A stretch of DNA of 64,000 nucleotides from Pseudomonas tritici (lineage in GTDB: Bacteria > Pseudomonadota > Gammaproteobacteria > Pseudomonadales > Pseudomonadaceae). The position numbers and the translations under genes are program-made. The stretch's first letter is position 1. Each line of letters opens with the position of its first letter. This document shows positions 7,788-20,037 of the stretch, piece by piece. Below the pieces are notes generated by a model, which saw nothing but the letters and a program-made list of their open reading frames with translations, was not told the DNA's origin and did not search any database. The stretch covers positions 2,356,001-2,420,000 of the forward strand of contig NZ_CP077084.1 in assembly GCF_014268275.3 (NCBI RefSeq), in the 5' to 3' direction.

Positions 7788-7945
7788 TGCTCACCCAGCC
7801 TTAAATCCGTGAGTTCAAGTAGCTGACTGATAGCGCGCAAGGGAAGTTCACCCGTGTGAAATTAGCGACTACAACCATGGTGAAAAATGGAATAACAGAA
7901 CTATAAAAAATAACCATAAGATACTAAAAAACCGCTCAAAAGCGT

Positions 7946-7974
7946 TTGACAGGCTTTTTCGCCCCGTGTCTTAT
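7946..7974 (+). promoter_or_regulatory. candidate sigma70 promoter for the sulfation operon
   Basis: TTGACA at 7946-7951, a 17-nt spacer, and TCTTAT at 7969-7974 (4 of 6 matches to the -10 consensus), about 67 nt before the HAD gene. The surrounding 254-bp divergent region (7788-8041) is AT-rich on its left half. Confidence 0.45.
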
Positions 7975-8041
7975 AGGCACACCTCAACCCGCTCCGTTGG
8001 TAGTTCGGAAGTCATCGCGGGGCCAGCAATAAGAGATATCT

Positions 8042-8746
8042 ATGTGCCTCTCGGCCGATATAGGGGAACAGCCCGTTCAGGAAACAGCCGCTGCCTTAGT
8101 TGGCGTGCCTAAGTTAGTTATCTTCGATTGCGACGGTGTGCTTGTCCAAAGCGAAGAAATAACCCTGTCTGTGTTGATCGCCCTGCTAAATGCGTTAGTA
8201 CCGGACGACGCGATGTTAGATGCCACACGTTTTATCGAACACTTCCGTGGGCGCAAGGTTGTTGAGTGTTTACGCGAGGCGGAACAGCTTTTAAATGTTC
8301 GCCTGGACAGTGAGTTTGAACAGCGCTTTCGAAAGCAGGCATTGGACGCACTGACAAAACGTTTAAAAGCCACTGATGGAATGATTGAAGTACTGCAAGC
8401 GCTGACCGTTCCTTTTTGCGTAGCGTCCAGTGCGCCACGTGACAAGATAGAACACTGTCTGCGCCTTACCGGGCTGCTCTCTTATTTCGAAGGGCGAATA
8501 TTCAGTTGTTATGAGTTGGGCAGTTGGAAGCCTGATCCCTTAGTGTTTCTGACGGCGTGTGATGCTTACGGTATTGATGTGAGTGATGCATTGGTTGTTG
8601 AAGACAGTGTGACCGGTATTCAGGCTGCTGTTGCCGCCCATCTACGTGTCTTGGGCTTTGGCCCTCCGCATCGGCATCCGCAGTTAGTGGCTGCCGGCGC
8701 ACGGCCGATTGCCGATATACGTGAAATGCTGGCCGTTTTTAATTGA
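8042..8746 (+). CDS. HAD-superfamily phosphatase, beta-phosphoglucomutase-like
   Basis: The product has 234 residues. Motif I is FDCDGVLVQSEE (nucleophile Asp about residue 29), motif II is in CVASSAPRDK, the lysine is in LGSWKPDPLVF, and motif IV is VVEDSVTGIQAA. This is the HAD subfamily I layout of beta-phosphoglucomutase and small sugar-phosphate phosphatases. It is the first gene of the operon and 25 bp ahead of the transaldolase-like gene, so it most likely removes a phosphate from the sugar-phosphate intermediate made there. The Shine-Dalgarno sequence is weak (AAGAGA). The exact substrate is unknown. Confidence 0.85.
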   Translation: MCLSADIGEQPVQETAAALVGVPKLVIFDCDGVLVQSEEITLSVLIALLNALVPDDAMLDATRFIEHFRGRKVVECLREAEQLLNVRLDSEFEQRFRKQALDALTKRLKATDGMIEVLQALTVPFCVASSAPRDKIEHCLRLTGLLSYFEGRIFSCYELGSWKPDPLVFLTACDAYGIDVSDALVVEDSVTGIQAAVAAHLRVLGFGPPHRHPQLVAAGARPIADIREMLAVFN

Positions 8747-8771
8747 TCTTATTACTCAGGGAGGAGGCGTC

Positions 8772-9995
8772 GTGAATATACGTGGTTACGTAGAACGGCT
8801 TAAACGCAACAATCATTATTCAGAAGTGTGGTGGGATTCATCGCCTGCCGTGTACCTGCCTTATAAACAGCACTTGTTGGAAAAGTACCCGGCGGCGACG
8901 ACTTATATAGATGCGTTGATGCCGGATGATATCGCCCAGCCCAGAGGCTTGTGCAGTGTGACCACCAACCCGCGGTTGGTGACGGCCGTTATCCTCGAAA
9001 AGCGCGAGTATTGGTCATCGCGTTTCAACCTCGCGAGCCTGTCTCCCAGTGAGCTGCGCAAGCAGTTGTACAACGAAGTCATCCTCGAAGGCGCCGCGAC
9101 GCTCAAGCCGCTGTGGGTTCAATCGGCGCAGGTCGAGGGCTGGATTTCCGCCCAGGTCGACCCGGTGGATGTGCGCTGCACCGAGCGCATGACCGCCAGG
9201 GGCCTGGAACTGCATCGCCTCGCACCTAACGTGATGGTCAAGGTGCCGGGCAGCCTCGAAGGGATGGCGACTGTAGAACAGCTGGTCGCCCTGGGCGCGT
9301 CGGTGAATATCACCTTCTGCTTCACGGTGGCGCAGTTCCAGGCCGGTATCCAAGCCATCGAACGCGGCCTGGCGACTGCACGCCGCAACGGTATCGACAC
9401 CCGTCGCTGCAAGTACGTCATCACCTTCATGATTGGGCGTTTCGCCTGCCAACCTGAGTTCACGTTGCAGGCGGCGGAGCGTGGTCTGGTCTTGAGTGCC
9501 GAGGAACTGCGCTGGGCTGAATTGATGATCTACGAGCAGGTCCAGGCGCTGGTCGCGGCCTCGACCGTGCCGGTCAAAACCTTGCTTTCCAGTATAAAAA
9601 TCGACGTGGACGAGCGTGGCAACAAGCACTGCTGGCACTTGGAAAAGACCGGGCAGACGGCGACCTGCTACACGCTGACGCCGGAGGTGGTGGAGTTTCT
9701 GATCGAGCGCGAGAGCCATGGCAAGCCGGTGGTGCCTGCGGTGGAACCCCAGAAGCCGCCTGCGTCGACCTTCGCCAAGCTGATCCGCATCCCGTATTTC
9801 TACGAAGCCTATTTCATCGACAGCATCGAGCCGTACGACTTTGGCAACCACGAGGCGTTTATCAACGCCTGCAATGAAGCCAACAGCGCACACCGGCGCC
9901 TGGCGGACTACTGCGTGCGGCTCTGCCCGGTAACCAAACCCTTCAAGCGCGCGCTCAACGCGCTGCTGGCCGCCGAATTCGGGGTGATCGCATGA
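8772..9995 (+). CDS. transaldolase-like protein
   Basis: The GTG at 8772 is chosen because GGAGG precedes it at about 6 nt; it gives 407 residues. The barrel shows transaldolase features: GLCSVTTNPRLV (the TTNP motif), VMVKVPGSLEG with the likely Schiff-base lysine, and GASVNITFCFTVAQF. It is longer than TalC-type proteins (about 220) and even TalA/B (about 317), with roughly 90 extra C-terminal residues of no recognised domain. Neighbouring HAD phosphatase and dehydrogenase genes suggest that it builds or trims a sugar-phosphate skeleton for a specialised metabolite. A housekeeping pentose-phosphate role is unlikely given the setting. Confidence 0.8.
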   Translation: MNIRGYVERLKRNNHYSEVWWDSSPAVYLPYKQHLLEKYPAATTYIDALMPDDIAQPRGLCSVTTNPRLVTAVILEKREYWSSRFNLASLSPSELRKQLYNEVILEGAATLKPLWVQSAQVEGWISAQVDPVDVRCTERMTARGLELHRLAPNVMVKVPGSLEGMATVEQLVALGASVNITFCFTVAQFQAGIQAIERGLATARRNGIDTRRCKYVITFMIGRFACQPEFTLQAAERGLVLSAEELRWAELMIYEQVQALVAASTVPVKTLLSSIKIDVDERGNKHCWHLEKTGQTATCYTLTPEVVEFLIERESHGKPVVPAVEPQKPPASTFAKLIRIPYFYEAYFIDSIEPYDFGNHEAFINACNEANSAHRRLADYCVRLCPVTKPFKRALNALLAAEFGVIA

Positions 9996-10720
9996 ACCGG
10001 ATGATCGGGTTGTGGGCCCACCCACGTTCGCGCTCCACCGTATTGGAGCGCGTGTTTATCGAGCGGGGGGATTTCGAGGTCTTCCACGAGCCCTTTGCGC
10101 ATATGGCGTTTTCAGAGGACTCGGCGATCCCTTCGGATGAGTGGGATCACAGTTTGCCCACCACTTACCAGGGCATAAAAGAACACTTGGTCACGGCGCG
10201 CGAACGAACTAACGTTTTTCATAAAGATATGTGTTACCACTGTTTGGATGATTTGAAAGTTGATGTCGGCTTTCTGGCGCAACAGGATAATATCTTTCTT
10301 ATTCGCGAACCCGCCAGCAGCATTATTTCCCATCATCGAGTCCACCCCGATATGCCGTTGCAGGCCATCGGGCATAAAGCGCTGTACGACATATTCTGTG
10401 TGGTCACTAAACTCACAGGCCACGTTCCTTATGTCATTAATGCAGATGATTTGGCCGCCGAGCCGGAGCGGGTGATTCGCAAACTGTGTGATCACTTGGG
10501 TATTGAATTTCTGCCGCACGCAATGACCTGGAAACGCGAGTGTCCACAACAATGGAAAACCTGGCGGAGTTGGCATGTGGCTGCGGAAAATAGCGATCGC
10601 ATTGTTTCGCCGGATCATCACACTATCGATATCGAGGCTTTCGAACAGTACCCAAAGTTAAAGAAAATGTATGAATACCATCGGACTTTTTACGCGCGCA
10701 TGAATGAGTTTTGTCAATAA
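9992..10720 (+). CDS. PAPS-dependent sulfotransferase family protein
   Basis: The product has 242 residues. The 5'-phosphosulfate-binding loop is visible as AHPRSRSTVLERV (about residues 9-21), and FLIREPASSIISHH supplies the 3'-phosphate-binding region. The size fits small-molecule sulfotransferases. The start overlaps the preceding stop by 4 bp (ATGA). The acceptor is unknown; an APS kinase in the same operon would supply PAPS, which strongly supports a true sulfation step rather than a diverged nucleotide-binding protein. Confidence 0.85.
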   Translation: MNRMIGLWAHPRSRSTVLERVFIERGDFEVFHEPFAHMAFSEDSAIPSDEWDHSLPTTYQGIKEHLVTARERTNVFHKDMCYHCLDDLKVDVGFLAQQDNIFLIREPASSIISHHRVHPDMPLQAIGHKALYDIFCVVTKLTGHVPYVINADDLAAEPERVIRKLCDHLGIEFLPHAMTWKRECPQQWKTWRSWHVAAENSDRIVSPDHHTIDIEAFEQYPKLKKMYEYHRTFYARMNEFCQ

Positions 10721-10730
10721 GGATATTTGT

Positions 10731-11456
10731 ATGAAGAAGCTGATTATCACCGGAGCGGCCAACGGAATTGGTCGAGCGACTGTCGAGATGGCTATTCAAC
10801 AGGGTTACTTTGTTATCGGCGCCGACAAAGATGCCGGGGGGCTGAAAGTGTTGCAGGACCTTTACAGCGCGGACGTGTTTGAAGCACAGGTTGCCGACTT
10901 TTCTGATATGACCGTTATCAAAAGTTTTATCCCAACCCTGTATGAGCGCCACGCGACTGTTTATGGACTGGTCAATAACGCCGGCCTTTATCACGGCAAA
11001 AGTGTCTACGCCTATTCCGATGAGCAAATAGACGAGATCCTCAACGTCAACCTCAAGGCGCTGGTCTATCTCTCCAAAGACTTCGCCGAACGGGAAATGA
11101 AGCACGAGGCCCCGCGCAGCATCGTCAATATCGCCTCGGTGGCCGGTGAAGTCGGCAGCTGCGATGCCCTCTACGGTGCCACCAAGGCAGCGGTGATCGG
11201 CCTGACCAAGGCCAACGCCTGGAATTTCGCACCGTTTGTGCGGGTGAACGCGGTGTCCCCGGCGCTGATCCACGAAACCGCCATCTACGACACCATCCCT
11301 GAATACCGGCGTGCCGAGTACGCACGCCAGGAAGTCCTCAAGGACCCGATCCTGCCCAGCGGCGTTGCCGAGGTCATCATGCTGCTGGTTGGCGATGCAA
11401 TGCGCCACATCACCGGCAGGGTCATTCCGGTCGACAACGGAGCCTACCCACGATGA
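10731..11456 (+). CDS. short-chain dehydrogenase/reductase
   Basis: The product has 241 residues from the ATG at 10731, chosen for the AAGGAT just upstream. Motifs are TGAANGIGRA, VNNAGLYHG, Ser in NIASVAGE and YGATKAAV (Tyr-x3-Lys). It is a classical SDR acting with NAD(P). Inside this operon it could oxidise or reduce a hydroxyl or keto group of the intermediate. The stop overlaps the next start (ATGA). Confidence 0.85.
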   Translation: MKKLIITGAANGIGRATVEMAIQQGYFVIGADKDAGGLKVLQDLYSADVFEAQVADFSDMTVIKSFIPTLYERHATVYGLVNNAGLYHGKSVYAYSDEQIDEILNVNLKALVYLSKDFAEREMKHEAPRSIVNIASVAGEVGSCDALYGATKAAVIGLTKANAWNFAPFVRVNAVSPALIHETAIYDTIPEYRRAEYARQEVLKDPILPSGVAEVIMLLVGDAMRHITGRVIPVDNGAYPR

Positions 11457-12589
11457 GCCAGTCGATGCCCAGGAAAAAACTGCTGCTGGTCGGCGCCGGC
11501 AACCTGTGCCTGCAGATCCTCAAGATTCTCGGCCCCAAAAACGCTTTCGACTTTGTAGTACTGGGCCGCAATGAAGAGTCGACGATTCGGCTGTGTAACC
11601 TGGTAGAGCTGTCGTGTGCGCAATTAGGGCAATTCATTGCCATCAAGCCGGTGGTCGCCGACCTGACAGATATCGCGACAGTCGCGCAATTGCTGCGTGA
11701 AGAAGCGCCGGATATGCTGGTGAACTGCGCGTCGCTGCAGTCCTGGCGGGTTATTACCGGGTTGCCCAAGCTGTCGTTCGAGAAGCTTGACCAAGCTCAG
11801 TTCGGTCCCTGGCTGCCCATGCACCTGACGCTGATGCATTGCCTGATGCGAGCGGTAAAAGCCTCGGGCATCACCACTAAAACCGTTAATGCAGCGTTCC
11901 CCGATGCGGTCAATCCGATTCTGGCGCGCATTGGCCTGGCGCCGGATATCGGCGTGGGCAATGTGGCCAACCTGGTTCCCGCTGTGCGGTTTTCCATCGC
12001 CCGCTTGCTCGAATGCGCGCCCGCTGATGTGCAAGTGCAGCTGTATGCCCAGCATTACTTCAGCCACTACGTGCCGCGTGGTGGCTTGCCCCCGCGTGCC
12101 AGTTACCGGTTGTTGTATGAGGTGCGCGATCGGCCGGAGCTGGCTGGTCCGTCGGCCGAGGCGATTTTCTCTACGGTGAAATCCGAATTCCGTCGCCTGG
12201 GCGGGGTGGATGGGCAGTTCCTCACGGCATGTTCCGCCGTCACCGTCATCGAAGGGCTGTTCTCACCCACGCCGGTTGTGGTGCACGCACCAGGCCCCCT
12301 CGGGCTTCCGGGCGGTTACCCGGTGTTGCTGCACGAGGGGCGGATCGAGGTGCAGTTCTCCGAGGCTTGTCCAAAGGACGAAGCGGTGCGCATCAACACC
12401 ATTTGCCAGAGCCAGGATGGCATTGACGAAATCCATTGTGACGGCTCAGTCAGCTACAACCCCCAGTGCATGGCCGTCATGCAATCGATGCTGGGGTATT
12501 CCAAGAACACCATGTCTATCGAGCAGTCCGCCGAGTTCGCCCTCGAGTTGGCGAGCAAGTACCTGTCCTTCAAGAATTCAACCTGGTAG
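11453..12589 (+). CDS. saccharopine-dehydrogenase-like NAD(P)-binding protein
   Basis: The product has 378 residues. An N-terminal Rossmann fold starts at LLLVGAGNLCLQIL (about 10-23) and continues with a beta strand reading FDFVVLGRN; the MLVNCAS segment is typical of saccharopine dehydrogenase/homospermidine-synthase-like proteins. The C-terminal two thirds match no family I recognise. Such folds reduce imines or act on amino-acid-like substrates, so this gene points to a nitrogen-containing product. It is coupled to the SDR by a 4-bp overlap and lies 7 bp before the methyltransferase. Confidence 0.65.
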   Translation: MSQSMPRKKLLLVGAGNLCLQILKILGPKNAFDFVVLGRNEESTIRLCNLVELSCAQLGQFIAIKPVVADLTDIATVAQLLREEAPDMLVNCASLQSWRVITGLPKLSFEKLDQAQFGPWLPMHLTLMHCLMRAVKASGITTKTVNAAFPDAVNPILARIGLAPDIGVGNVANLVPAVRFSIARLLECAPADVQVQLYAQHYFSHYVPRGGLPPRASYRLLYEVRDRPELAGPSAEAIFSTVKSEFRRLGGVDGQFLTACSAVTVIEGLFSPTPVVVHAPGPLGLPGGYPVLLHEGRIEVQFSEACPKDEAVRINTICQSQDGIDEIHCDGSVSYNPQCMAVMQSMLGYSKNTMSIEQSAEFALELASKYLSFKNSTW

Positions 12590-12596
12590 GTGTGTG

Positions 12597-13367
12597 ATGA
12601 ATCAGATTTCCGAGCGCAAGCACAACGAAGTTGCCAGTTATTCCACGCAGTACTCGGCGGATTTCGTCGAGCGTTGGGATGAGTTGATCGACTGGGAAAA
12701 ACGCAAGGCAGGGGAGGGCGGGTTCTTTGAAAACCTGCTGCACAAGCACGGCGTGCGCTCGGTCATAGACGTATCGACGGGCAGTGGTTTTCATGCGGTG
12801 CAGCTCAAGCAGGCGGGCTTTGATGTGGTCGCCACGGATGGCAGCAGCACGATGTTGACCAAGGCGCGGGCGAACTTTCGCAAACACGGGCTGGACATTG
12901 AGTCCAATTACCGCGACTGGCACTCACTGGACCCGCAGGAGCTGGGCCAATTCGACGCCGTGGTGTGCCTGGGCAGTTCGCTGTGCCATGTGTTCGCCGC
13001 TCACGACCGATTGAGCGTGTTGGCGAAGTTCAGGGCATTGCTCAAGCCGGGTGGCCTGTTGATTGTGGACCAGCGTAATTTCCTGGCTATTCGCGCAGGT
13101 AATTTCAAGGCCAGCGGCAATTATTATTACTGCGGTACAAACGCATCCGTGAGCTTGGGGCAGGTCGATGAGCACCTGTGTGAGTTCATCTACAACTTTG
13201 ATAACAAAGAACGCTACACGTTGAAGGTTTACCCGTTGTTGCCGGGCGAGTTGGCCACTGAAATGCTGGCTTCCGGGTTTCGCGCCCATGAGAGCTACGG
13301 TGATTTCAAGTCTGTCTACGACATGATGAATTGCGATTTCGTCATCCACACCGCGGGCGCTGAATGA
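12597..13367 (+). CDS. class I SAM methyltransferase, glycine/sarcosine N-methyltransferase-like
   Basis: The ATG at 12597 follows the previous stop by 7 bp and gives 256 residues. SAM motif I is VIDVSTGSGFHAVQL (about 55-69), with ATDGSSTM after it as motif II. The WDELIDWEKR start and the LIVDQRNF block resemble glycine/sarcosine N-methyltransferases that make betaine or sarcosine. I infer N-methylation of an amine in the pathway product. O-methylation cannot be excluded. The frame is open further upstream, but that part overlaps the preceding gene and has no ribosome-binding site. Confidence 0.75.
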   Translation: MNQISERKHNEVASYSTQYSADFVERWDELIDWEKRKAGEGGFFENLLHKHGVRSVIDVSTGSGFHAVQLKQAGFDVVATDGSSTMLTKARANFRKHGLDIESNYRDWHSLDPQELGQFDAVVCLGSSLCHVFAAHDRLSVLAKFRALLKPGGLLIVDQRNFLAIRAGNFKASGNYYYCGTNASVSLGQVDEHLCEFIYNFDNKERYTLKVYPLLPGELATEMLASGFRAHESYGDFKSVYDMMNCDFVIHTAGAE

Positions 13368-13377
13368 GAGGTCGATG

Positions 13378-14607
13378 ATGAGCACACTGGTTCAGAGCAA
13401 TACCCGCCCCTTGGACAGCGTCGTATTGGCGGTCGTCCTCACTGGCTTCGTGGCCAGCACCTACGGGTTTGGTGTCTACCTGTTCGCCAACCTCGTGGTG
13501 GACATGCGCCGCGACATCGGCTTCGACTACACCACGGTGGGCTTGATCACCGGCGGCGCGCAGATCGGATTCCTGCTGTTCTCGTCGGTGACAAGCGTAA
13601 TCAGCCGGTTTTTCGAGGGCTGGAAAATCAGCCTGGTGTCCACGGTGATGACCTCCCTGGCGCTGCTGGGCCTGAGTATCAGTGACAGTATCTGGTTGTC
13701 GGGCGCTCTTTTGATCCTGCTCGGTGGCTGTTCCGCCTCGGTGTACATCCCGTTGGCGGAAATCGTCACCAAGGGTTTCAGCCCGGGTAATCGCTCCCGG
13801 GTCATGGGGCTGATTTCCAGTGGCACCAGCTACGGCGTGTTTATCAATGGCTTGCTGGTGTCGTTCCTGACATTGAATGGCGGCTGGCGCTCGATCTGGC
13901 TTACCGCAGGCCTGATATCGGTTGTGCTGTGCGTGGTGGCGTGGTTTCTGTTGCGCACCCTGGCCACGAGCCGGGACACCGGATTTTCCGGGGAGCGCGC
14001 CGCTGCATTTGACAGTCAACGACCCTGGCTCAGCCGTTCGTTGTACCTGACGTGGGCCATCGCCTTTCTCAATGGCATGGCACTGCTGCCGTTCCAGACG
14101 TACCTCGCGCCGTTCCTGCGTGATGAATTGGGCGTGTCGGTACAAGACGCCGGGTTTATCTGGACCACCATCGGTGCCGTGGGCATGGCGTCGGGCTTTC
14201 TGGTGGGGTGGATTGCCGACAAGGTCGGTGTGCGGGCGTCGCTGGCGATGTGTTTTCTCAGTGCCGGGCTGGCCGCCACCCTGGTGTTCAGTTTCAACAG
14301 CCTCCCGCTGTTCTACCTGGCGGCGTTTCTGTTTGCACTGGCGTTTTACCCCATCTTCGGGTTGGTCCCCAGTTACATCGGGCAAATCGTGCCGGTCAAC
14401 CGGTTGACCCAGGCCTTTGGCATCGCCAACGTTCTGATCGGCTTGGGTGGGGTGTGCGGCAACTTCCTGGGCGGCTTTTCCAAGGACCTGACCGGGTCGT
14501 TCTCGACGGTCTACTGGGTGGTTGCGCTGTTGCTGTTCGTGCAATGCGTGATGGTGTTCATGTTGGGTAAACAGCCTGTTTCGGTCGAGGAGGGCGAGCA
14601 GTCATGA
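13378..14607 (+). CDS. MFS transporter, probable product exporter
   Basis: The product has about 409 residues in twelve hydrophobic segments (for example VVLAVVLTGFVASTYGFGVY and VLCVVAWFLLRTLA). ATG codons occur at 13375 and 13378; the second is 6 nt from AGAGG and is preferred. Its position between the methyltransferase and APS kinase genes, with an overlap into the latter, argues that it moves the pathway product or precursor. It resembles YbfB/oxalate-formate-type MFS proteins only in general pattern; the substrate is unknown. Confidence 0.85.
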   Translation: MSTLVQSNTRPLDSVVLAVVLTGFVASTYGFGVYLFANLVVDMRRDIGFDYTTVGLITGGAQIGFLLFSSVTSVISRFFEGWKISLVSTVMTSLALLGLSISDSIWLSGALLILLGGCSASVYIPLAEIVTKGFSPGNRSRVMGLISSGTSYGVFINGLLVSFLTLNGGWRSIWLTAGLISVVLCVVAWFLLRTLATSRDTGFSGERAAAFDSQRPWLSRSLYLTWAIAFLNGMALLPFQTYLAPFLRDELGVSVQDAGFIWTTIGAVGMASGFLVGWIADKVGVRASLAMCFLSAGLAATLVFSFNSLPLFYLAAFLFALAFYPIFGLVPSYIGQIVPVNRLTQAFGIANVLIGLGGVCGNFLGGFSKDLTGSFSTVYWVVALLLFVQCVMVFMLGKQPVSVEEGEQS

Positions 14608-15218
14608 GTTATTTTCCAAACAGTCAAAACCAGAATCTGCATGCGTTTGCGTTCAGCCACCGGCGCGCCGAACACGTGCGGATGAACCACAAGCCTGCCG
14701 TCATCTGGATGACCGGTATCTCTGCTTCCGGCAAGTCGACCATCGCTGATGCGTTGGACATTGCCCTGCAGGAACAGGGGCGGATCACGGCCATTATTGA
14801 CGGCGACTCGGTACGTGGTGGGCTGTGCCGGGACTTGGGTTTTACCGACAGCGACCGCGATGAGAATATCCGCCGGGTCGCCGAGGTCGCGCGGCTGATG
14901 CTCGACGCGGGGCTGATGGTGATTGTCGCGCTGATTTCACCCTCGTCGGCCAGCCGGCACTACGCGCGCTCGATTATCGGCAATGAGTACTTCGTGGAAG
15001 TGCATGTGGACGCGCCGCTGGAAACCGCCGAACAGCGTGATCCTAAAGGCCTGTATAAAAAGGCCCGCGCGGGGTTGATCAAGAACTTCACCGGTATTGA
15101 CTCCAATTATGACGTGCCGGTGTTTCCGGAAGTGCACTTGAACACCCAGGCGCTTTCCGTGGCGCAGTCTGTGGCGGCTATCCTTGATTGGGTGGCGCAT
15201 AACGACAAGCGCACCTAG
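14604..15218 (+). CDS. cysC: adenylylsulfate (APS) kinase
   Basis: The product has 204 residues. It carries a P-loop GISASGKST (the usual family form is GLSGSGKST), IDGDSVRGGL, DLGFTDSDRDENIRRVAEVA and ALISPSS, all in CysC order, plus FTGIDSNYDVP near the end. The reaction is APS + ATP to PAPS + ADP. It is a stand-alone kinase, not a CysN-CysC fusion, and is the last gene of the operon, overlapping the MFS stop by 4 bp. Its likely job is local PAPS supply for the sulfotransferase five genes upstream. An N-terminal extension of about 25 residues is unusual; an internal ATG at residue 27 is an alternative start. Confidence 0.9.
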   Translation: MSYFPNSQNQNLHAFAFSHRRAEHVRMNHKPAVIWMTGISASGKSTIADALDIALQEQGRITAIIDGDSVRGGLCRDLGFTDSDRDENIRRVAEVARLMLDAGLMVIVALISPSSASRHYARSIIGNEYFVEVHVDAPLETAEQRDPKGLYKKARAGLIKNFTGIDSNYDVPVFPEVHLNTQALSVAQSVAAILDWVAHNDKRT

Positions 15219-15325
15219 CCGTCTGTCTTTGCGTCGGGTTTGCGCCGGGATCGCAATGTCTGCCATTCGAAAAAACAAGGTAATCTGCGCCATCGCAAGG
15301 AGAATGCGTTTTTTCGGGAGCAGGC

Positions 15326-15970
15326 ATGACACATTTTACGGGCACTGCAAAATCGATCCGTCTGATTGGTGGGGCTCGGGTATTGGACTTTATCAATACC
15401 ACCAATGGTCGTCGTCCCGGCACCGGACTCAAGGTCCTGGAAGAGCGACTCACGAGCTTTCAGTTCTTCTTTGAATGGGCATTCCATGCGTCGTTGATCT
15501 CGGCCCAGGAGTTTGCGGACTACAAGCCGATGGTGCTTGGGTCATCGATCGCCTACCAACCGGACCTGGACGCCGTTATCGCATTCAGGGAGTGCCTGTA
15601 CGAGGTGTTCTATCCGTTGTCGTTGCGCGGCGCTGCACCCGATGAGGCGTTGCAGCAGATTAACCAAACGTTCCAGCACGGTGTTGCACGGCGCGTGCTG
15701 CGTACTGTCGACGGCAAGCCTACCTGGGAGTGGAAGCCTTGCAGTACGGCACAGGAACTGACGGCCACGGTGCTGGGGCGCCTGGCGATAGACGCCACGC
15801 AATTGCTGGTATCGGGTGATTTGCAGGCGTTGCGCAGTTGCACCTCGACTGACTGCGATTGGGTGTTTCTGGACATCTCCAAGAACAAACAGCGCAAATG
15901 GTGCCAGATGAGCGTGTGCGGCAGCCGCGAAAAACTCAGCCGACTCAAGCAGGTTGGCGGCGCGCAGTAG
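15326..15970 (+). CDS. ABATE-domain / CGNR zinc-finger transcriptional regulator
   Basis: The product has 214 residues, with GGAG 5 nt before the ATG. The N-terminal region (GGARVLDFINTT) is the ABATE domain; the C-terminus has the zinc ribbon CTSTDCDWVFLD...RKWCQMSVCGSREK, the CGNR motif here reading CGSR. Proteins of this kind are putative DNA-binding regulators, often stress-linked. It lies 107 bp after cysC on the same strand, so it may control the sulfation operon, but could also be an independent gene. Confidence 0.8.
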   Translation: MTHFTGTAKSIRLIGGARVLDFINTTNGRRPGTGLKVLEERLTSFQFFFEWAFHASLISAQEFADYKPMVLGSSIAYQPDLDAVIAFRECLYEVFYPLSLRGAAPDEALQQINQTFQHGVARRVLRTVDGKPTWEWKPCSTAQELTATVLGRLAIDATQLLVSGDLQALRSCTSTDCDWVFLDISKNKQRKWCQMSVCGSREKLSRLKQVGGAQ

Positions 15971-16007
15971 TTTCGAGGTCATACGGCGGGTAGCAATTGC
16001 TCCACTT

Positions 16008-16054: not shown

Positions 16055-16555
16055 ATGATCCCTCAGCCGCCCCGCAGAACAGGCTTTTTCGAACACTACG
16101 AAGAGTTGATCGGGACCTGGACGCGCCGCCTGAGAAACCGTCAGCAGGCCGAAGACCTGGCCCATGACACCTTTGTGCGGGTCCTTGAATCAACCGCCTC
16201 CGAGGTTGCGCAACCGCGCGCCTACCTGCATCAAACTGCGCGCAATATCGCCGTGGACGCCTATCGACGCGAAGACCGTCGCGAGGCCCTCACGCTGCAA
16301 GCCTGTGATCAGCGTTCGCCGCACAGTGACGACCCGGAGCATTTCATGCACGCGATCCAGTTGGCGGACTCTATCGAGCGGGCCCTGGCGGAGCTGCCGC
16401 TCAACTGCCGCCGAATTTTTATCTGGCAGAAAATCGAGGGCCTGACTCAACAGGAAATCGCCGAACGCCTGGGGCTGTCTAAAAACATGGTGGAAAAGTA
16501 TATGATCCGCACCCTGCGGCATTTGCGCGACCGCCTGGACGCGATGGCGCCATGA
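16055..16555 (+). CDS. fecI: ECF sigma factor, FecI type
   Basis: The product has 166 residues, with sigma region 2 (RNRQQAEDLAHDTFVRVLE) and region 4 (LTQQEIAERLGLSKNMVEKYM) as the helix-turn-helix. It lies 25 bp before fecR, the standard fecIRA arrangement. It would direct RNA polymerase to the fecA promoter when FecA signals ferric citrate binding through FecR. Confidence 0.92.
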   Translation: MIPQPPRRTGFFEHYEELIGTWTRRLRNRQQAEDLAHDTFVRVLESTASEVAQPRAYLHQTARNIAVDAYRREDRREALTLQACDQRSPHSDDPEHFMHAIQLADSIERALAELPLNCRRIFIWQKIEGLTQQEIAERLGLSKNMVEKYMIRTLRHLRDRLDAMAP

Positions 16556-16580
16556 CCGCCCGTTTGAAACAGGATCTTCC

Positions 16581-17534
16581 ATGACGGATAACCGTGCCCG
16601 AGACGAAGCCGCGCAATGGTTTGTGCGCCTGCAAGACGCCGAGTTGAGCGCTACCGAGCGCCAGCACTTCGACGCATGGCGCAATGCGCATCCCGACCAC
16701 CAATACGAATTCGATGTGCTGCAAGGCGTGTGGCGCGCTACCGATTTGCTGCCCAAAGCGCATCTGCAAGCGCTGTGCGAAGCCCCGGTGGTGCGGCCCA
16801 AGCGTCGCACCGCTTTGCGTTACGCGGTGGCGGCCAGCGTGGTCGGTGTTGCTCTGGGATTGGGCCTGTTCAGCGGGCTTGGTGATCCCAAGCCTTTCAG
16901 CGCGGAGTTCAGTACACGCTTGGGCGAGCATCGTCAGGTGGCATTGCCCGATGGCTCGGTGATGGACCTCAATAGCCGCAGCATCGTCGCGGTGCACTAT
17001 GAAAAAGGCCGGCGCGGTGTGGAGCTCAAGCGGGGCGAAGCGATGTTCAGTGTCGAGCATGACACCCGCCGGCCTTTCGTCGTGGCCGCCGGGGCAGGGC
17101 AGGTGACAGTGACCGGCACGCGGTTCGATGTGCGCCGTGATGAAGATCAGACCCGCGTCATGGTCGAAGCCGGTACGGTGAAGGTGCAAGGTAGTGCGCC
17201 GGACAACGTGGTGACGCTGACGGCGGGCCTGGGCACCCATGTCGACAATAAGGGGATGGTAGCGGCAGCTTACTCAGTGAATACCGAGGAACTGACCGCC
17301 TGGCGCACGGGCAAGCTGGTCTTCAATAACGCTACGTTGGGCGATGTGGCGCGGGAGGTCTCGCGTTACCGCGAGCAACCGCTGCGGGTCAGCACGCCGG
17401 CCGTGCGCGACCTGCGGCTGACCAGCGTGTTCAAGGCCAACGATACCGACGCCTTGCTCAAAGCCTTGCCGCACATCCTGCCGGTGGCCCTGCGAACCTT
17501 GCCAGACGGCAGCCAGGAAATTATTTCACGCTGA
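16581..17534 (+). CDS. fecR: FecR anti-sigma / sigma regulator
   Basis: The product has 317 residues. The cytoplasmic N-terminal DUF4880-type part (EAAQWFVRLQDAELS) is followed by one membrane segment at about 76-98 and a periplasmic FecR domain (GEHRQVALPDGSVMDLNSRS, FVVAAGAGQVTVTGTRF), then the C-terminal signalling part (LRLTSVFKANDTDALLKAL). It carries the FecA signal to FecI across the inner membrane. Confidence 0.92.
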   Translation: MTDNRARDEAAQWFVRLQDAELSATERQHFDAWRNAHPDHQYEFDVLQGVWRATDLLPKAHLQALCEAPVVRPKRRTALRYAVAASVVGVALGLGLFSGLGDPKPFSAEFSTRLGEHRQVALPDGSVMDLNSRSIVAVHYEKGRRGVELKRGEAMFSVEHDTRRPFVVAAGAGQVTVTGTRFDVRRDEDQTRVMVEAGTVKVQGSAPDNVVTLTAGLGTHVDNKGMVAAAYSVNTEELTAWRTGKLVFNNATLGDVAREVSRYREQPLRVSTPAVRDLRLTSVFKANDTDALLKALPHILPVALRTLPDGSQEIISR

Positions 17535-17631
17535 CATTCAGGTTTTTTCCACGTTCTTCGTCTTCTCCTGCAACTGCAACTGGTTTGCATTAACAGCCGC
17601 GCACTCTTGCGATCACAGGACTGGGTTCGAC

Positions 17632-20037
17632 GTGAAAAAACTTGCCGTCAACAACAATAAAATCTCCCGATGGGCGCCACTGGCCCTGGCGCTCGCGGTC
17701 AGTGCCGCGCTTCCTGCGGCTTATGCCGCCGACGCCATTCATATCGAGGCCCAGCCCCTGGGCGCGGCGCTGAGCCAATTGGGCCAGCAGACGGCCCTGC
17801 AAGTGTTCTTCAGCCCCGACATGGTCGCTGGCAAACAAGCGCCAGCGGTAGACGGCAACCTTTCCCCTGAACAAGCCCTGCGCCAGTTGCTGCAAGGCAG
17901 TGGCCTGGATTACCGGATAGATGCAGGCTCCGTGACGCTGCGCCCGCTGAGCGTTGGCAGTGGTGAGACCGGCTCCCCGCTGGAACTGGGCGCCACTGAT
18001 ATCAAGGTGGTGGGCGACTGGCTCGGTGATGCCAACGCCGAAGTGGTGCAGAACCACCCCGGGGCACGCACGGTGATCCGCCGCGAAGCCATGGCGGAGC
18101 AGGGCGCAATGAACGTCGGCGACGTGCTGCGGCGCGTGCCCGGTGTGCAGGTGCAGGAATCCAACGGCACCGGCGGCAGTGATATTTCCCTCAACGTTGG
18201 TGTACGTGGCCTGACGTCGCGCCTGTCGCCACGCTCCACCGTGCTGATCGATGGCGTACCGGCTGCATTCGCGCCGTACGGCCAGCCACAGCTGTCGATG
18301 GCGCCGATTTCGGCGGGTAACCTCGATAGCATCGACGTGGTACGCGGCGCCGGTTCCGTGCGTTATGGGCCACAAAACGTCGGCGGTGTGATCAACTTCG
18401 TGACCCGCGCCATTCCCGAGAAATTCTCCGGCGAAGTCGGCACTACCCTGCAGACCTCCGCCCACGGTGGCTGGAAGCACGTCGAGAACGCCTTTATTGG
18501 CGGCACTGCCGACAACGGTATCGGCGTTGCGCTGCTGTACTCCGGTGTCAATGGTAACGGGTACCGTACCAGCAACAATTCCAACGACATCGACGATGTG
18601 ATGCTCAAGACCCACTGGGCGCCCACCGATCAAGACGACTTCTCGCTGAACTTCCACTACTACGACGCCAGTGCCGACATGCCCGGCGGCCTGACCCAGC
18701 GGCAATTCGACGCCAACCCTTACCAGTCGGTACGCGACTGGGACAACTTCAGCGGCCGCCGCAAGGATGTGTCCTTCAAGTACATCCGTCAGATCGACGA
18801 CCGCACCCAGGCAGAAGTACTGACCTACTATTCCGACAGTTTCCGCGGCAGCAACATCGCTAACCGCGACTTGCGCACCGTTGGTTCTTATCCGCGCACC
18901 TACTACACCTTCGGCATCGAACCGCGAGTGTCCCATGTGTTCGATCTGGGCCCGAGCACCCAAGAGGTCAGCGTGGGTTATCGCTACCTCAAGGAAGGCA
19001 TGCATGAGCAGGCCAGTAGCCTGGGCCTGGTCAACAACGTACCGACGCCGGTCGGTCGCAGTGATGGCCATGTCTACCAGGACCGTACCGGCGGCACCGA
19101 GGCCAACGCCTTTTACGTCGATAACAAGATCGATATCGGCAAGTGGACTATCACGCCAGGCATCCGCTTCGAGGATATTCGAACCGAATGGCACGACCGT
19201 CCGGTCATCCCTTTGACCGGTCCGCGCACCCTGGAAAAACGCCGCGAAGTCCACAACAACGAGCCGCTGCCGGCGTTGAGCGTGATGTACCACGTCTCTG
19301 ATGCCTGGAAACTGTTCGCCAACTACGAGACTTCGTTTGGTAGCCTGCAATACTTCCAGCTGGGCCAGGGCGGCACCGGCGACCAGACCGCCAACGGTTT
19401 GAACCCGGAAAAGGCCAAGACCTACGAGGTCGGCACGCGCTACAACGACGCTGTCTGGGGCGGTGAGCTGACGTTTTTCTACATCGACTTCTCGGATGAG
19501 TTGCAATACGTCAGCAACGATGTGGGCTGGACCAACCTCGGTGCTACCAAGCACACGGGTATCGAAGCCTCGGCCCACTACGACCTGGCAAACCTGGACC
19601 CACGCCTGGACGGCCTGACCGCGAACGTCGGTTTCACTTACACCAAGGCCACCTCCGAAGGCGACGTACCGTTCAAGGGCCGTGACCTGCCGTTGTATTC
19701 CCGTGAAGTGGCGACGTTGGGCCTGCGTTACGACGTCAACCAGTGGACCCACAACCTGGATGTGTACGCCCAGTCAGGCCAGCGTGCGCCAGGTACAACG
19801 AGCACCTACATCACCCAAGGTACCGCCGATGGTCAATTTGGCGATATCCCCGGCTATGTCTCGGTCAACGTGCGCAGTGGCTATGACTTTGGCGAGCAGT
19901 TGTCTAACTTGAAGTTGGGAGTCGGCGTGAAAAACGTTTTTGATCAACAGCACTACACCCGTTCGAGCGACAACAATGCCGGGCTGTACCTGGGGGAGCC
20001 ACGTACGTTCTTTGTACAGGCAAGCGTCGGGTTCTAA
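17632..20037 (+). CDS. fecA: TonB-dependent ferric citrate receptor FecA with signalling domain
   Basis: The product has 801 residues from a GTG start. A signal peptide is followed by a secretin/TonB N-terminal signalling domain (IHIEAQPLGAALSQLGQQ, about 37-54), the plug, and a 22-strand barrel ending in VQASVGF. The LIDGVPAAFAPYGQPQLSMA plug segment is very close to E. coli FecA, which supports ferric dicitrate over other siderophores. It imports the iron complex through the outer membrane with TonB energy and starts the FecR-FecI signal. It is 97 bp from fecR. Confidence 0.9.
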   Translation: MKKLAVNNNKISRWAPLALALAVSAALPAAYAADAIHIEAQPLGAALSQLGQQTALQVFFSPDMVAGKQAPAVDGNLSPEQALRQLLQGSGLDYRIDAGSVTLRPLSVGSGETGSPLELGATDIKVVGDWLGDANAEVVQNHPGARTVIRREAMAEQGAMNVGDVLRRVPGVQVQESNGTGGSDISLNVGVRGLTSRLSPRSTVLIDGVPAAFAPYGQPQLSMAPISAGNLDSIDVVRGAGSVRYGPQNVGGVINFVTRAIPEKFSGEVGTTLQTSAHGGWKHVENAFIGGTADNGIGVALLYSGVNGNGYRTSNNSNDIDDVMLKTHWAPTDQDDFSLNFHYYDASADMPGGLTQRQFDANPYQSVRDWDNFSGRRKDVSFKYIRQIDDRTQAEVLTYYSDSFRGSNIANRDLRTVGSYPRTYYTFGIEPRVSHVFDLGPSTQEVSVGYRYLKEGMHEQASSLGLVNNVPTPVGRSDGHVYQDRTGGTEANAFYVDNKIDIGKWTITPGIRFEDIRTEWHDRPVIPLTGPRTLEKRREVHNNEPLPALSVMYHVSDAWKLFANYETSFGSLQYFQLGQGGTGDQTANGLNPEKAKTYEVGTRYNDAVWGGELTFFYIDFSDELQYVSNDVGWTNLGATKHTGIEASAHYDLANLDPRLDGLTANVGFTYTKATSEGDVPFKGRDLPLYSREVATLGLRYDVNQWTHNLDVYAQSGQRAPGTTSTYITQGTADGQFGDIPGYVSVNVRSGYDFGEQLSNLKLGVGVKNVFDQQHYTRSSDNNAGLYLGEPRTFFVQASVGF

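Follow-up and report, generated by a model that had tools for sequence, protein, structure and literature searches.

The nine genes at positions 8042–15970 of a 64,000-nt stretch of the Pseudomonas tritici genome (contig NZ_CP077084.1; this whole stretch is called the window, and coordinates are positions within it) behave as one cassette that is co-inherited as a unit in Pseudomonas, and this cassette probably makes a small polar molecule, sulfated and methylated, that derives from a sugar phosphate. In the simplest account, an aldol step that starts from a sugar phosphate leads to a small acid or amino acid that is both methylated and sulfated. More tentatively, and with a little less than even confidence, we suggest a novel class of sulfated metabolites from Pseudomonas, in which a transaldolase turned aldolase would make the skeleton, a detachable capping module would add sulfate in most loci read and perhaps an acyl group in one, and the genes would form a mobile 8.1-kb cassette that is easily missed by finders of polyketide synthase (PKS), nonribosomal peptide synthetase (NRPS), ribosomally synthesized and post-translationally modified peptide (RiPP) or terpene genes. 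What is new is the combination of genes together with the aldolase-type enzyme that starts the pathway, rather than any one of the families. No published description of the gene set was found in the literature searched, with most subscription papers outside reach, which agrees with the preliminary description of this DNA, whose author knew of none.

The source genome is one 6.24-Mb contig, and all nine frames are open on the + strand at the place first described. Pfam domains were found above cut-off in eight of the nine proteins, the exception being a 378-residue dehydrogenase. The block opens with a haloacid dehalogenase (HAD) phosphatase (8042–8746; 234 residues; PF00702, 80.8 bits), followed after a 25-bp gap by a putative transaldolase-fold Schiff-base aldolase (8772–9995; 407 residues; TAL_FSA, PF00923, 79.8 bits, cut-off 27), which starts at GTG 8772, where the Met of homologues aligns (a GTG also stands at 8769). 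A sulfotransferase (9992–10720; 242 residues; Sulfotransfer_5, PF19798, 56.5 bits, cut-off 23.2) overlaps its end by 4 bp. Inside the sulfotransferase gene begins a short-chain dehydrogenase/reductase (SDR) family oxidoreductase (10704–11456; 250 residues; PF13561, 130.1 bits, with adh_short also assigned), which in turn overlaps by 4 bp the dehydrogenase, an oxidoreductase with the predicted fold of malate and lactate dehydrogenases (MDH/LDH; 11453–12589; 378 residues). A methyltransferase of the glycine/sarcosine N-methyltransferase (GSMT) group (12579–13367, from ATG 12579; 262 residues; Methyltransf_25) follows with an 11-bp overlap, then, after 7 bp, a major facilitator superfamily (MFS) transporter (13375–14607; 410 residues; PF07690 (MFS_1), 152.5 bits, and PF06779, 88.9 bits), and, with a 4-bp overlap, an adenosine 5′-phosphosulfate (APS) kinase (14604–15218; 204 residues; PF01583, 205.9 bits; TIGR00455, 221.8 bits, cut-off 138.7). 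These junctions bear out the claim that eight genes run head to tail with overlaps or gaps of at most 26 bp. The ninth gene, for a CGNR/ABATE transcription regulator (15326–15970; 214 residues; zf-CGNR, PF11706, 54.7 bits; ABATE, PF07336, 53.1 bits), begins 107 bp 3′ of the APS kinase gene and therefore lies outside that run, yet still inside the cassette.

The APS kinase and sulfotransferase profiles both exceed their cut-offs, which supports the proposed supply of 3′-phosphoadenosine 5′-phosphosulfate (PAPS) beside a small sulfotransferase; this kinase is one of five family matches in the source genome, and one of the three strong ones at E < 1e-40. As had been stated, the Pfam scan of the nine proteins gave no PKS, NRPS, RiPP or terpene domain, and it gave no mobile-element domain. 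The GC content is 57.1% in the operon and 60.0% in the window, and neither promoter-like sites (2 vs 3.5 in shuffled sequences) nor terminator-like sites (13 vs 8.7, sd 3.0) gave a clear signal.

An empty site delimits the unit. Among the regions of seven relatives compared (L127–L133), one, L127 (genome G040), shows it: in blastn, similarity to the window ends at 7850 and restarts at 15984, with 35 bp between in L127, so that the differing block (7851–15983) consists of the nine genes and a leader. The L127 matches to the upstream SDR gene and the downstream sigma-factor gene are separated by 167 bp. L128–L133 contain the upstream SDR gene, but neither cassette genes nor the downstream sigma gene were matched within the region read (only 6.5 kb in L129), so that they speak neither for nor against an empty site. 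Genes for a sigma factor, a FecR-type regulator and a TonB-dependent receptor stand directly downstream of the cassette (16055–20037) and are not part of it, since they are also found at the cassette-free site in L127.

In the first clade, both flanks were recovered in 14 of 19 named loci and are mostly the same as those of the window; L020 stops within the operon, and L023 covers just part of the upstream SDR gene. The insertion site is not identical everywhere, as the downstream flank genes were not found within ~4 kb past the operon in L008, L009 and L010. No direct repeat brackets the cassette ends among 20 of the 21 families listed, and plasmid records gave no DNA-level match. Five loci (L012, L013, L014, L018 and L023) are named P. 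viridiflava or P. syringae. Their flanks are 84–96% identical to the window's, so these names look doubtful, and the two species were set aside as producers.

How is the cassette distributed within the genus? Transaldolase homologues (E of 1e-20 or better) were found in 42 of 398 Pseudomonas genomes, the source genome included, at 44 places; two of the 42 genomes hold only a third, unlinked transaldolase-like family. We read 43 of these places (30 short loci, L056–L062, L064–L067, L068 and L069), where L063 is a longer form of L053 and the 44th place is the second piece of a split gene in genome G182; the 19 named loci overlap some surveyed genomes and were not added to the counts. A sulfotransferase gene follows the transaldolase gene in 40 of the 43 places (30/30 short loci and 10/13 others), with partial matches in L044 (149 residues) and L056 (89 residues), and is missing in L066 and in the two loci of the third family, L068 and L069. 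Scattered, unlinked homologues, which the preliminary description had named as a sign against a pathway, are thus not the pattern within Pseudomonas, and the proposal that the set acts as one pathway is supported. Furthermore, all nine genes are matched in the same order in 18 of the 19 named loci (the exception being L020; in L009, the CGNR match is split into two pieces), which argues that the set is not due to chance. Named species among the carriers include P. simiae, P. marginalis and P. salomonii.

The APS kinase gene was matched in 12 of the 15 longer loci (L055–L067, L070 and L071), the others being L056, L066 and L070. The HAD gene stands before the transaldolase gene in 29 of the 30 best places, and the two share one frame in 4 of 30 loci; five proteins of 628–645 residues (P0025, P0031, P0036, P0037 and P0044) contain both domains. 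L037 has a 648-residue open frame, yet was not scored as such a fusion. A second clade comprises 12 loci in which the transaldolase is 39–49% identical and the middle genes are kept. In G182, the transaldolase of L063 lies in two frames, and the same genome has a second-clade copy, L062. The pairwise distances of the nine families, with L068 and L069 left out, correlate strongly (r of 0.92–0.99, 231–561 pairs each), a result that common descent alone could produce.

One variant bears on sulfation. In genome G347 (L066), no sulfotransferase gene separates the transaldolase gene from the SDR gene, the two overlapping by 4 bp, and the place that the APS kinase gene takes in the related locus L062 is occupied by 1.24 kb that include an acyltransferase-3 gene (PF01757; L066:4872–5999). 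Both sulfation genes are jointly absent from this operon, in one genome, while an acyltransferase is present, and sulfation therefore looks like a separable tailoring step. An acyltransferase gene of 83–86% identity occurs at other sites in G182, G385 and G020 (two of the three surroundings were compared), and G347 showed no further copy this similar.

Relatives of the sulfotransferase were found in five plasmid records, four from Streptomyces and one from Dolichospermum. The two that were opened, both from Streptomyces, lie in NRPS neighbourhoods and not in the polysaccharide or lipid loci that the preliminary description had proposed to check for. As judged from this context, the cassette sulfotransferase, a PF19798 family member, may be a PAPS-dependent enzyme that acts on a small molecule. 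A PDB sequence search with this protein returned noise (E of 0.039 and worse, with the known sulfotransferase CurM at E 0.062) and was discarded.

The transaldolase-like enzyme keeps the Schiff-base lysine, Lys158, in all 20 sequences of alignment A1, and so too Gln129, which aligns on a Glu of the C. glutamicum transaldolase 3r5e; in a wider alignment, each is kept in 35 of 37 sequences, both exceptions being L068 and L069. We take the corresponding acid-base residue of true transaldolase to be TalB Glu96. By these alignments, the cassette enzyme is a transaldolase homologue with Gln129 in place of the acid-base Glu of true transaldolase (EC 2.2.1.2), which amends the first assignment; E-to-Q variants appear in the titles of PDB entries. 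Met221 aligns with a Phe of 3r5e, at a position that presumably equals Tyr131 of fructose-6-phosphate aldolase (FSA) and Phe178 of TalB. The HAD phosphatase is nearest, among NCBIfam families, to 6-phosphogluconate phosphatase (123 bits, below that family's cut-off). The roles of Gln59 and Tyr131 in FSA are treated in the accessible part of PMC13259622.

In a sample of the class, the transaldolase profile matched 44 of 302 other genomes. These matches cover the central part of the protein at 73–99 bits, none of them approaching the values of the operon family, and such scores indicate ordinary transaldolases. On plasmid p1 of Shinella sp. H4-D48, a transaldolase-like gene (L146:8986–10206) stands between E1 and E2 genes of the 2-oxoacid/acetoin-dehydrogenase type, with phosphatase, triose-phosphate isomerase and sugar ABC transporter genes as neighbours; its product is 32% identical and has the same Lys, Gln and Met, and the group looks like an unusual sugar catabolic operon. 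The third transaldolase-like family (29–30% identity; L068:9147–10439 and L069:9248–10480) has TonB-receptor or FecR genes upstream and, downstream, heme oxygenase and bacteriophytochrome kinase genes in L068 and a bacteriophytochrome kinase gene in L069. As it has Ser at the Schiff-base lysine and Glu at Gln129, it may be a non-catalytic relative linked to light sensing.

The 378-residue protein was first described as saccharopine-dehydrogenase-like, a label that was not confirmed: no Pfam or NCBIfam family matched at E 0.001, a PDB saccharopine dehydrogenase matched only at E 0.8, and the best matches of the predicted fold, among those listed, are to MDH/LDH. In UniRef, some relatives go under the name 'saccharopine dehydrogenase NADP binding domain-containing', and PF03435 is carried by 2 of the 120 relatives listed. 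The model thus points to an MDH/LDH-fold oxidoreductase. The catalytic residues of LDH are, we assume, His195, Asp168 and Arg171; in a weak profile alignment, His201 fits (34/34) and Arg179 is found in 32/34, but the Asp site is Pro176 (34/34). The proposed step that adds or reduces an amine is accordingly not supported either, and no aminotransferase is encoded among the nine genes.

Beyond the genus, the MDH-fold protein was found in 2 of 368 other genomes of the class sample and in 5 of 398 of a phylum sample. The seven non-Pseudomonas loci gave no match to the transaldolase, sulfotransferase, methyltransferase or APS kinase, and L076 gave two weak SDR matches. Relatives also occur in 20 plasmid records, 11 of them from Rhizobium, Sinorhizobium or Mesorhizobium. 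In the three rhizobial plasmids opened, an alanine racemase gene is divergent from the MDH-fold gene and C45 peptidase genes are near, with a drug/metabolite transporter (DMT) gene also near in two of the three. These loci (L147, L148 and L149), together with L085 and L086, contain a recurring but variable set, not all of it in each locus, of alanine racemase, DMT/EamA transporter, HAD hydrolase, MDH-fold protein and C45 peptidase/AAT, which is perhaps related to D-amino acids.

The methyltransferase scored 248.6 bits against NF051855, whose curated cut-off is 350, and matched the GSMT structure 5h02 at E 8.4e-60 over residues 17–259 of 262. In the accessible part of PMC5146677, Arg167 and Tyr206 of GSMT hold the carboxylate and Asn134 the amine, with Tyr26 and Tyr185 also given roles. 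Arg167 and Tyr206 are kept in 33/33 cassette sequences and Tyr26 and Tyr185 in 32/33, whereas Asn134 is Ser in 33/33. The N-methylation first proposed is likely as judged from these residues, with the carboxylate pocket kept and the amine contact altered. The best NCBIfam matches of the MFS transporter are lactate and galactonate carriers, all below cut-off, and export is assumed.

The pathway that we propose builds on what was computed directly, namely the gene set, the cassette unit, its co-inheritance, two folds, the kept catalytic residues and the joint absence of the sulfation genes from one operon; its substrates, step order, nitrogen source, transport direction and regulation we infer. 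With its Lys158, the transaldolase-fold enzyme would bind a ketose donor as a Schiff base, for example dihydroxyacetone (free or derived from a sugar phosphate), and would then form a new carbon-carbon bond, acting more like an aldolase than like a transaldolase. The phosphate would be taken off by the HAD phosphatase, which in some strains is fused to this enzyme, and the SDR and the MDH/LDH-fold enzyme would alter alcohol or ketone groups, one of which probably adjoins a carboxylate. The GSMT-like enzyme would methylate an acceptor gripped by its carboxylate, most likely at an amine. The APS kinase would supply PAPS, with which the sulfotransferase would sulfate a hydroxyl, the MFS transporter would move the product, probably outward, and the CGNR protein would regulate the set. 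Of the first interpretation, the pathway, the PAPS supply and the lack of classical cluster genes are retained, the saccharopine-type amine step is not supported, and methylation and export are kept as probable parts.

Several observations weigh against this proposal. Met221 matches neither Tyr131 of FSA nor Phe178 of TalB, which makes the aldolase assignment insecure, and the methyltransferase falls under the GSMT cut-off with its amine-contact Asn changed. As no amine-forming enzyme is encoded, the nitrogen may come from elsewhere or the methyl group may go to another atom. In the second clade, 9 of 12 loci gave no HAD and no MFS match, and in 7 of 12 a CGNR match is missing; L070 has a sulfotransferase and no APS kinase or HAD match, and L056 (G126) has only the HAD gene, the transaldolase gene and part of the sulfotransferase gene. 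The G347 arrangement, from one genome, may be a chance rearrangement. Furthermore, the opened dehydrogenase and transaldolase relatives outside Pseudomonas stand without the other cassette genes, so that the set itself has been seen only in Pseudomonas.

Could the cassette serve another purpose? A sulfated betaine of the amino-acid type, or another compatible solute, retained as an osmolyte or exchanged through the MFS transporter, would agree with a methyltransferase closest to the glycine/sarcosine N-methyltransferases, which make betaine, with its kept carboxylate Arg and Tyr, and with the Pfam text for ABATE, a putative stress-induced transcription regulator. We consider this unlikely, because glycine betaine needs no aldolase, phosphatase or two oxidoreductases, Ser replaces Asn134 throughout, and presence in 42 of 398 genomes suits accessory metabolism more than core osmoprotection. 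Sulfate could also be placed on a surface glycan or lipid, with the remaining genes supplying a sugar precursor. The nine proteins, however, include no glycosyltransferase, polymerase, flippase or nucleotide-sugar domain, the two opened sulfotransferase relatives lie in NRPS clusters, and the carrier is of the MFS type with carboxylate-type nearest matches; such a role seems very improbable to us, although the transaldolase-like enzyme and the phosphatase fit a sugar and dehydrogenase relatives stand near glycosyltransferase genes in two other gammaproteobacteria (L076 and L077).

The least probable of these alternatives is a catabolic or detoxifying set that imports a sugar acid or amine, cleaves it by an aldol reaction and inactivates an intermediate by sulfation. 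A dedicated APS kinase and an S-adenosylmethionine-dependent methyltransferase would be expensive for catabolism, and the cassette encodes neither a dehydrogenase complex nor a route into central metabolism. On the other hand, the lactate and galactonate carriers nearest to the MFS protein, the Shinella homologue in its sugar-uptake and 2-oxoacid-dehydrogenase-type gene group, and the rhizobial dehydrogenase relatives beside alanine racemase, C45 peptidase and, in two of three, DMT transporter genes would be in keeping with it. We prefer the synthesis of a small sulfated, methylated molecule. If this is true, the enzymes that start natural products through carbon-carbon bond formation would gain a transaldolase relative, and an oxidoreductase of the MDH fold that Pfam and NCBIfam do not name would be a further addition; to our knowledge, Pseudomonas gene clusters have been linked to few sulfated small molecules.

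Among known enzymes, the FSA/transaldolase family shares with the cassette enzyme its fold, its Schiff-base Lys and, as in FSA, Gln at the acid-base position; the cassette enzyme differs by a Met at what we take to be the Tyr131 site, and its identity to the solved members listed is 15–25%. Similarly, the methyltransferase resembles GSMT (5h02 and 5gwx) in its carboxylate Arg and Tyr and its catalytic Tyr, but differs in having Ser at Asn134 and in scoring below the NCBIfam cut-off. The Streptomyces NRPS clusters NZ_CP108363.1 and NZ_CP139176.1 contain the same sulfotransferase family (31–32% identity over 95–98% of the query), and the first has its own APS kinase gene (cysC) beside cysD, whereas the second has none in the stretch shown; both differ from the cassette in being NRPS-based, and within the regions shown neither a transaldolase nor a methyltransferase is named.

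Two papers were considered as descriptions of the gene set and rejected: the accessible part of PMC8719888 overlaps with it only in the title of a cited work on threonine transaldolase and in a sulfotransferase-NRPS that is unrelated, and that of PMC3639832 only through phaseolotoxin. The phaseolotoxin (Pht) cluster of P. syringae pv. phaseolicola, compared by description only, is a Pseudomonas cluster with its own adenylylsulfate kinase, phtS, but the rows of the Pht table available to us name no transaldolase, sulfotransferase or methyltransferase (PMC3639832). The bulgecins of Burkholderia (once Pseudomonas mesoacidophila), likewise compared by description only, differ from the cassette in their NRPS and glycosyltransferase parts and their unsettled gene location, but are small natural products with a sulfotransferase step, and for their core amino acid a transketolase-type carbon-carbon bond step is proposed as one route in the accessible part of PMC5472815.

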